The notes under the pieces: generated by a model
Seen by the model: only the letters and a program-made list of their open reading frames with translations
Told to the model about the DNA's origin: nothing
Databases searched by the model: none
DNA from: Phascolarctobacterium sp.
GTDB taxonomy: Bacteria > Bacillota > Negativicutes > Acidaminococcales > Acidaminococcaceae
Reading direction: 5' to 3'
Length of the DNA: 43,960 bases
Assembly: GCA_030531205.1 (NCBI GenBank)
Contig: JAUNOC010000008.1
Coordinates: 36,941 to 80,900, forward strand
Made by a program: the position numbers and the translations under genes
In this document: piece by piece, positions 2 through 39,124 of the stretch
Layout: each line of letters starts with the position of its first letter
Numbering within the stretch: the first letter of the stretch is position 1

Positions 2-1099
2 ATTATACCATACCAAGAACCAACAGGGAATTACAACCGAAAAACAAGGACTAAAACAAGGGCAGATATTATACCATACCAAGAACCAACAGGGAATTAC
101 AACAAATAAGAGCTAATCACACCTATTGTAACAATTATACCATACCAAGAACCAACAGGGAATTACAACCTTTTGTGCTTGCTGTGGCAATTATATCCCA
201 ATTATACCATACCAAGAACCAACAGGGAATTACAACGAACTGGTTGTCCTGTACTTTGTGCCTTTGATTATACCATACCAAGAACCAACAGGGAATTACA
301 ACCTTTTTGCACAAGAGCCACTATATCTCTTATATTATACCATACCAAGAACCAACAGGGAATTACAACTTCTCATCATCGGAATTTATGCCGTTCCGGA
401 TTATACCATACCAAGAACCAACAGGGAATTACAACATAACTTCACGAACACCGTCACTATCTATAAAATTATACCATACCAAGAACCAACAGGGAATTAC
501 AACGATAGTATCAAAATTAAGGTTAATATGTTCATTATACCATACCAAGAACCAACAGGGAATTACAACAATCAATTAGCTGCTATTAAGAGTATGTCTA
601 TTATACCATACCAAGAACCAACAGGGAATTACAACCATATTCGCCGCAAGTAAAAGCCCTGTGCCAATTATACCATACCAAGAACCAACAGGGAATTACA
701 ACTATTGGTGAATCCGTCCAATGTCTTTTTAGATTATACCATACCAAGAACCAACAGGGAATTACAACCTGTTTTATCTCATATTGGAATGCAAGCAAAT
801 TATACCATACCAAGAACCAACAGGGAATTACAACCTCTAATTTCTTTAAAACATAACGGGAAACATTATACCATACCAAGAACCAACAGGGAATTACAAC
901 TTGTTGGTGATGCCTGTTTTTCTGTGCAACATTATACCATACCAAGAACCAACAGGGAATTACAACCGGCTTTGTTCTATGCGGAACAAACAAAACATTA
1001 TACCATACCAAGAACCAACAGGGAATTACAACCGAGCGGGCTTAGCTATGTTCCGTTTGTGGAATTATACCATACCAAGAACCAACAGGGAAAGTATTA
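2..1099 (-). CRISPR. CRISPR array, type II-C-like, truncated at left window edge
   Basis: There are 17 copies of a 36-bp repeat, starting at 2, 68, 134, 201, 267, 334, 400, 468, 534, 600, 667, 733, 799, 865, 931, 997 and 1064. They are separated by 16 unique spacers of 30-32 bp. Read on the minus strand the repeat begins GTTGTAATTCCC and ends GTATGGTATAAT. These are the features of type II-C repeats such as those of Neisseria and Campylobacter, whose repeats start GTTGTA and carry a promoter at the 3' end. The last copy (1064-1099) matches for 29 bp and then diverges over its final 7 bp, so it marks the end of the array. The array continues beyond base 1. No cas gene or tracrRNA anti-repeat is visible, so the type is inferred from the repeat alone. 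The minus strand is chosen because the embedded promoters point that way. Confidence 0.96.
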
Positions 1100-1104
1100 T
1101 TTAG

Positions 1105-1146
1105 TGAAAATTCCGTAATTTTACCGGTAAAATTACGGAATTTTCA
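1105..1146. repeat. 42-bp perfect palindrome next to the CRISPR end
   Basis: Two 21-bp arms meet at 1125/1126 without a mismatch; the left arm starts TGAAAATTCCGTAA and the right arm is its exact complement. It begins 5 bp after the degenerate terminal repeat. As RNA it would form a long hairpin, but neither strand has a strong T-run after it. It could be a bidirectional terminator insulating the array, or a protein-binding or recombination site. Confidence 0.85.
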
Positions 1147-26446: not shown

Positions 26447-26475
26447 TTGACCTCATATATAATGTATGGTATAAT
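26447..26475 (+). promoter_or_regulatory. ileS promoter, extended -10
   Basis: TTGACC and TATAAT are 17 bp apart, with TGG before the -10. Its GTATGGTATAAT is identical to the 3' end of the CRISPR repeat on the minus strand. The 73-bp leader is too short for a T-box. Confidence 0.85.
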
Positions 26476-33448: not shown

Positions 33449-33477
33449 TTGTAACCGCTTAATATAAGTGGTATAAT
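33449..33477 (+). promoter_or_regulatory. rpsB-tsf promoter, extended -10
   Basis: TTGTAA and TATAAT have 17-bp spacing, with TGG before the -10 box. Confidence 0.85.
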
Positions 33478-38640: not shown

Positions 38641-38667
38641 TTGCAAAATTGGAATTTGTGGTATAAT
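38641..38667 (+). promoter_or_regulatory. Extended -10 promoter of the secreted-protein gene
   Basis: TTGCAA and TGG-TATAAT with 15-bp spacing; the start codon is 34 bp downstream. Confidence 0.7.
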
Positions 38668-38701: not shown

Positions 38702-39124
38702 ATGAAAAAGATTATTAGTTTGGCATTTGCCGCTATGATGGCATTTAGTGCTGTTTGCTTGGCTGCTGGTGATGGTGCAGTTTTGAACAAATTGCAAAAA
38801 CCTGCTGAAGCCATGATTGGTATGTTTGATGGTAAAACTGAATATGCTGCAGTTGTAAAGAGCTTTACCGCAGAAGCAGCTGCTAATTTCAAGCAAGAGA
38901 CATTTGACAGTGTTAAGAAACAAGCCAAAGAAAAATTTGGCGATTTAAAAGAGAGCAAATTTGTTGCTTTCCAACGCCTTGACCAAGTTGATATTGTTGC
39001 TTACTTGGGCGCTTTCACAAAGGAAAAAATTGTTAACTTGTCTTTCATTTTTGATAAGACCGGTAAAATTGTGAACTTCCAATTCAGCCCTATTCAAGCT
39101 CAACAACAACCCGCTAAGAAATAA
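38702..39124 (+). CDS. Secreted small protein, DUF3887-like
   Basis: The 140-residue product has a clear signal peptide with cleavage likely after CLAA or CLA (MKKIISLAFAAMMAFSAVCL). The mature part (ETFDSVKKQAKEKFGDLKES, VDIVAYLGAFTKEKIVNLSF, GKIVNFQFSPI) has an NTF2-like/DUF3887 look: a helix followed by antiparallel strands. This family call is tentative. It is likely periplasmic and of unknown function. Its strong promoter and AAAGGAG ribosome site suggest good expression. A terminator follows at 39135. Confidence 0.6.
   Translation: MKKIISLAFAAMMAFSAVCLAAGDGAVLNKLQKPAEAMIGMFDGKTEYAAVVKSFTAEAAANFKQETFDSVKKQAKEKFGDLKESKFVAFQRLDQVDIVAYLGAFTKEKIVNLSFIFDKTGKIVNFQFSPIQAQQQPAKK

Follow-up and report, generated by a model that had tools for sequence, protein, structure and literature searches.

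How the CRISPR array at the left end of this Phascolarctobacterium DNA is transcribed, from one promoter outside the array or from a promoter inside each repeat, is the question raised by the 43,960-nucleotide stretch analysed here (in the following, the window). Read on the minus strand, the repeat unit is GTTGTAATTCCCTGTTGGTTCTTGGTATGGTATAAT (36 nt). An earlier note on this DNA had claimed that every intact repeat closes with GTATGGTATAAT on the minus strand, that the same 12 bases form the -10 region of the ileS promoter, and that this match makes leftward, spacer-by-spacer transcription likely. The repeat end was found as described in 17/17 window repeats (2-13 to 1064-1075), including the eroded outermost repeat, which is cas-distal and presumably the oldest one. 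The genome contains 19 copies of GTATGGTATAAT in total, 18 of them in the array, where one lies in a cas2-side repeat beyond the window (C14:36805). When one mismatch was allowed, 18 matches were obtained in the window, compared with 0.31 expected from shuffled sequences. Leftward of the window the array goes on past an assembly gap of exactly 100 N (L009:16842-16941, C14:36841-36940), which abuts window position 1 and resembles a scaffolding gap; as this run stands at the cas2 end, the newest spacers are missing from the assembly. A plus-strand ORF of 137 aa at 705-1118 was rejected as a gene, being an artefact of the CRISPR repeats (YTIPRTNRELQP units). The features discussed are collected in Table 1.

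Table 1. Positions of the array, its repeat ends, neighbouring repeats and host copies of the motif (window coordinates unless a locus is given).
Feature	Position	Strand	Remarks
CRISPR array	2..1099	-	17 repeats of 36 nt and 16 spacers of 30-32 nt
Extended -10 TGGTATAAT, 3' end of leftmost window repeat	2..10	-	
TGGTATAAT closing further repeats	68-76, 134-142, 201-209, 267-275, 334-342, 400-408, 468-476, 534-542	-	
TGGTATAAT closing further repeats, continued	600-608, 667-675, 733-741, 799-807, 865-873, 931-939, 997-1005	-	
Outermost repeat	1064..1099	-	first 7 nt changed; 3' 29 nt perfect; extended -10 at 1064-1072 intact
19-bp perfect palindrome (42 nt)	1105..1146	-	directly upstream of first repeat; -21.4 kcal/mol, z -7.5
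Dispersed intergenic repeats	1177-1238, 1567-1628; 1312-1373, 1448-1509, 2038-2099; L009:10264-11370		
GTATGGTATAAT, probable -10 region of ileS	26464..26475	+	73 nt before ATG 26549
TGGTATAAT upstream of rpsB	33469..33477	+	123 nt before start 33601; rpsB by TIGR01011
TGGTATAAT upstream of ORF at 38702	38659..38667	+	34 nt before ORF

The type of the locus was determined from its genes. The three genes that the earlier note had named as a check of the type, cas9, cas1 and cas2, all lie directly left of the array, on the plus strand in the order cas9, cas1, cas2, beyond the gap and one more intact repeat. Cas9 has 1156 aa and scores 780 bits against TIGR01865, Cas1 is of the type II (NMENI) model with 277 bits against TIGR03639, and Cas2 reaches 93 bits against TIGR01573, all above the curated cut-offs. 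A 36-nt tracrRNA anti-repeat, in which 33/36 positions pair with the repeat, is located just upstream of cas9 (L009:11942-11977); a strong terminator hairpin follows it, and TGATATACT, which is extended -10-like, occupies the expected place of the tracrRNA promoter. From L009:9945 to the array the only coding ORFs are cas9, cas1 and cas2, and neither csn2 (II-A) nor cas4 (II-B) is present. As judged by reading, the next ORFs right of the array, from 2169 on, are not cas-like. With a tracrRNA and cas9, cas1 and cas2 in the absence of csn2 and cas4, the locus is therefore of type II-C. Its array, with 36-nt repeats and spacers of about 30 nt, is convergent with the cas operon. Families of dispersed intergenic repeats, built around AGGAACATATTACCATAAC and GTAATGAGTAATTAG, flank the CRISPR locus on either side; upstream of cas9 there are two long copies that are nearly identical.

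A strong hairpin (L009:16770-16806) begins about 10-15 nt past the cas2-side repeat. Counterparts were seen at L010, L023, L024, L025, L031, L039 and L040, i.e., in most II-C arrays inspected. It is apparently a terminator serving both directions, and its constant distance, at the presumed entry of new spacers, may matter for integration.

The copies of the motif outside the array were then considered as host promoters. The GTATGGTATAAT copy before ileS (assigned by TIGR00392 with 1006 bits) is the sole copy outside the array genome-wide, and the copies of TGGTATAAT that had been reported before rpsB and at 38659 were both located. Outside the array TGGTATAAT occurs 43 times, compared with 19 for the reversed motif, and TGNTATAAT 195 times genome-wide, compared with 83. 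In 300 kb of the genome, with genes called crudely as the longest non-overlapping ORFs, 22/44 TGNTATAAT sites lie between genes and precede an ORF on the same strand, compared with 2/28 for the reversed motif. In the same 300 kb, TG precedes TATAAT in 22/89 promoter-placed hexamers and in 17/262 hexamers within ORFs. The extended -10 is thus a host promoter element, concentrated just upstream of genes. The identity of 12 bases with ileS was discarded as a telling match: it adds little in view of the 43 copies of TGGTATAAT outside the array, and by our own estimate from base composition about one of these 43 copies is expected to be preceded by GTA by chance. Of the argument built on ileS, the reading of per-spacer transcription is supported, whereas the weight given to this particular promoter is not. 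The -35 region of the repeat is poor (TTCCCT at 17 bp, 3/6 match). This is no obstacle, since only 6/22 of the promoter-placed TGNTATAAT sites have a good -35.

Promoters embedded in the repeat are already known for type II-C (Dugar et al., 2013; Zhang et al., 2013; Pearson et al., 2015; Feussner et al., 2025). In Campylobacter jejuni, crRNAs start at spacer position five by RNA-seq, and differential RNA-seq together with Northern blots demonstrated that they begin inside each spacer (Dugar et al., 2013; PMC3656092). That locus resembles the one studied here in its three cas genes, tracrRNA, 36-nt repeats and extended -10-like repeat end (GGTAAAAT). It differs in its tracrRNA, which lies downstream of the array and not upstream of cas9, and in its motif, which is only extended -10-like, whereas the window has the full consensus. 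In Neisseria meningitidis and N. lactamica, of another bacterial lineage than the window, repeat promoters that give processing-independent crRNAs have likewise been demonstrated (Zhang et al., 2013, as cited in PMC8616872 and PMC7038990), with repeats ending in TGCTACAAT (hexamer TACAAT). Clostridium cellulolyticum shares with the window the low-GC Gram-positive phylum, an array antiparallel to the cas genes and a repeat whose last nine nucleotides resemble an extended -10, and the mechanism has been proposed for it (PMC7038990). Its crRNAs, with 23-26 nt of spacer, were detected in E. coli, where starts were not separated from processing (PMC7038990). The survey of Pearson et al. (2015) gives gnTAnaaT for the 3' end of II-C repeats (PMC4607530). 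As in the window, Pearson et al. (2015) and Feussner et al. (2025) describe convergent arrays, a degenerate promoter-proximal repeat and hairpins or terminators upstream.

The repeat end was compared among 12 II-C arrays, namely that of the window, L010 (a named Firmicutes record) and 10 from a search of the window's class and phylum; this set excludes L026, L027 and L029 (no array found) and L033 (atypical repeat). TGN followed by a hexamer starting with TA closes the repeat in 10/12. The last nine bases are TGGTATAAT in four arrays, TGGTACAAT in two, AGGTATAAT in one, TGNTATGCT in three, TGGTATAAC in L024 and TAATATAAT in L010. The repeat of L010 (14642-16219), which ends TTGGTATAATATAAT, carries a complete TGGTATAAT five bases earlier, and this shifted element predicts crRNA starts that would lie nearer to the first base of the spacer. 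The extended -10 element was not found in the repeats of the II-A-looking arrays L034 and L035 of the same family. No spacers are shared between the relatives and the window array. L040 has a second array (32-1259), built on a different repeat of 30 nt and situated about 2 kb away from the II-C array, which suggests another CRISPR type alongside II-C.

A conserved repeat end could also be explained without a promoter, if the hexamer were kept for integration by Cas1-Cas2 and for pairing with the tracrRNA and one precursor were made from a promoter right of 1099. The repeat ends indeed form imperfect inverted repeats (GTTGTA/ATTATA), with 4-5 of 6 positions matching in 9/12 arrays, and pairing with the anti-repeat covers almost the entire repeat, so that part of the hexamer's conservation could come from these two functions. 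However, the inverted repeats leave unexplained the TG at positions 28-29 (10/12) and the asymmetry of the ends, with a 5' G in 12/12 and a 3' T in 11/12 arrays, and the last T of the repeat is unpaired in the window's anti-repeat. Minus-strand -10-like hexamers are present right of the array (1232-1237 and 1373-1378), but the 42-nt palindrome separates them from it. This palindrome is possibly an insulator against transcription from outside; it has no clear U-tract, unlike the upstream hairpins of Feussner et al. (2025) and Pearson et al. (2015) (PMC12080349, PMC4607530), and the terminator scan gives no call for it. In Riemerella, repeat promoters are reported to be absent from II-C arrays (PMC5006608). 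Taken with the decay of the oldest repeats described below, we regard a single outside precursor as improbable here.

One or two mutated cas-distal repeats per array were found in the window, L010, L024, L025, L028, L030, L038 and L039. Pooled over 11 decayed repeats, 50 of the 75 changes fall in positions 1-12, 22 in positions 13-24 and 3 in positions 25-36. None of the 75 hits the TG and one hits the hexamer; in the outermost repeat of the window all 7 changes lie within the first 7 nt. A naive binomial probability for this pattern is 6e-10, which is overstated as changes within one repeat are not independent. The pattern could partly reflect erosion of the outer edge, which would spare the inner half too, and II-A-like arrays likewise decay in the outer half. 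The repeats of L025 and L039 have 11-15 scattered changes with the promoter kept, and these argue for selection, because neither half would be of use in the first repeat of an array driven from a leader, and such a repeat would have no reason to keep its 3' part. The pattern agrees with Feussner et al. (2025), who found that such mutations cluster in the first 15 nt and suggested that their effect is to silence the extraneous crRNA (PMC12080349).

That the likeness to a promoter is a chance trait of one AT-rich repeat that the array has multiplied is highly unlikely: the 17 repeats were copied from each other and count as one event, not as independent ones, but the chance of TGNTATAAT at a given position is about 7e-5 (195 sites, 2.66 Mb, both strands), and the element is conserved in relatives whose Cas9 is only 40-56% identical.

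Since the host uses the motif, relatives conserve it and the oldest repeats keep it, leftward transcription of crRNAs spacer by spacer from promoters in the repeats is very likely (probability about 0.9). Start sites, processing and immunity we infer as follows. RNA polymerase with the housekeeping sigma factor would start about 6-8 nt inside each spacer, where no clear purine preference is seen at the expected positions, and would proceed leftward through the rest of the spacer and the next repeat. The latter would pair with the tracrRNA and either be cut by RNase III or be used uncut. This would yield one crRNA per spacer, its guide being about 23-25 nt long, and would require neither a leader promoter nor 5' trimming; longer precursors may arise in addition by read-through from repeats upstream.

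Two spacers have targets in a 40-kb prophage-like contig of a congener (G040:C109), in whose genome no cas9 relative was detected. Spacer 6 matches with 30/30 bases a gene resembling a large terminase, and spacer 3 matches with 28/30. The sites are L065:3218-3247 and L066:1388-1417, in terminase and tail-region genes named by eye. The mismatches of spacer 3 fall at positions 5 and 8. This end of the spacer would be missing from, or hardly used in, a transcript started inside it, and in this single case the mismatches fit the proposed guide. The 3' flanks of the protospacers are AGGTGGCG and CATACGCT, two sequences being too few for deriving a PAM. A match of spacer 16 in the congener contig was discounted for its 8 mismatches over 30 positions. 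Searched against phage records, the array produced a single weak match (28 nt, E 0.3), and exact scans of viral contigs with spacer pieces of 20-22 nt gave a single match over 22/30 spacer positions, which was judged unreliable.

Among the 12 arrays, L024 (relative G025) is the exception. All of its repeats (17/17, L024:8780-9896) end in TATAAC, not TATAAT, and it alone has a full TGNTATAAT outside the repeats within 300 nt upstream (L024:9888-9896, minus strand); this extended -10, TATGATATAAT, stands 16 nt before the outermost repeat. With the terminal C the inverted repeat becomes better, and the T at -7, the essential last base of the promoter, is lost. As a lead from a single case, L024 might tentatively be seen as having changed naturally from transcription spacer by spacer to a single precursor, the window array being the ancestral-type comparison. 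This loss of the T together with the upstream extended -10 is mildly new, as are the two spacer matches to the congener's prophage-like contig.

With this locus, a mode of crRNA expression that is already documented gains one more lineage, and the promoter match here is unusually good. The way in which the oldest repeats decay lends sequence-only support to the view that selection keeps the promoter half of the repeat, and L024 and the window would offer a simple comparison of two ways of transcribing an array in the same bacterial family.
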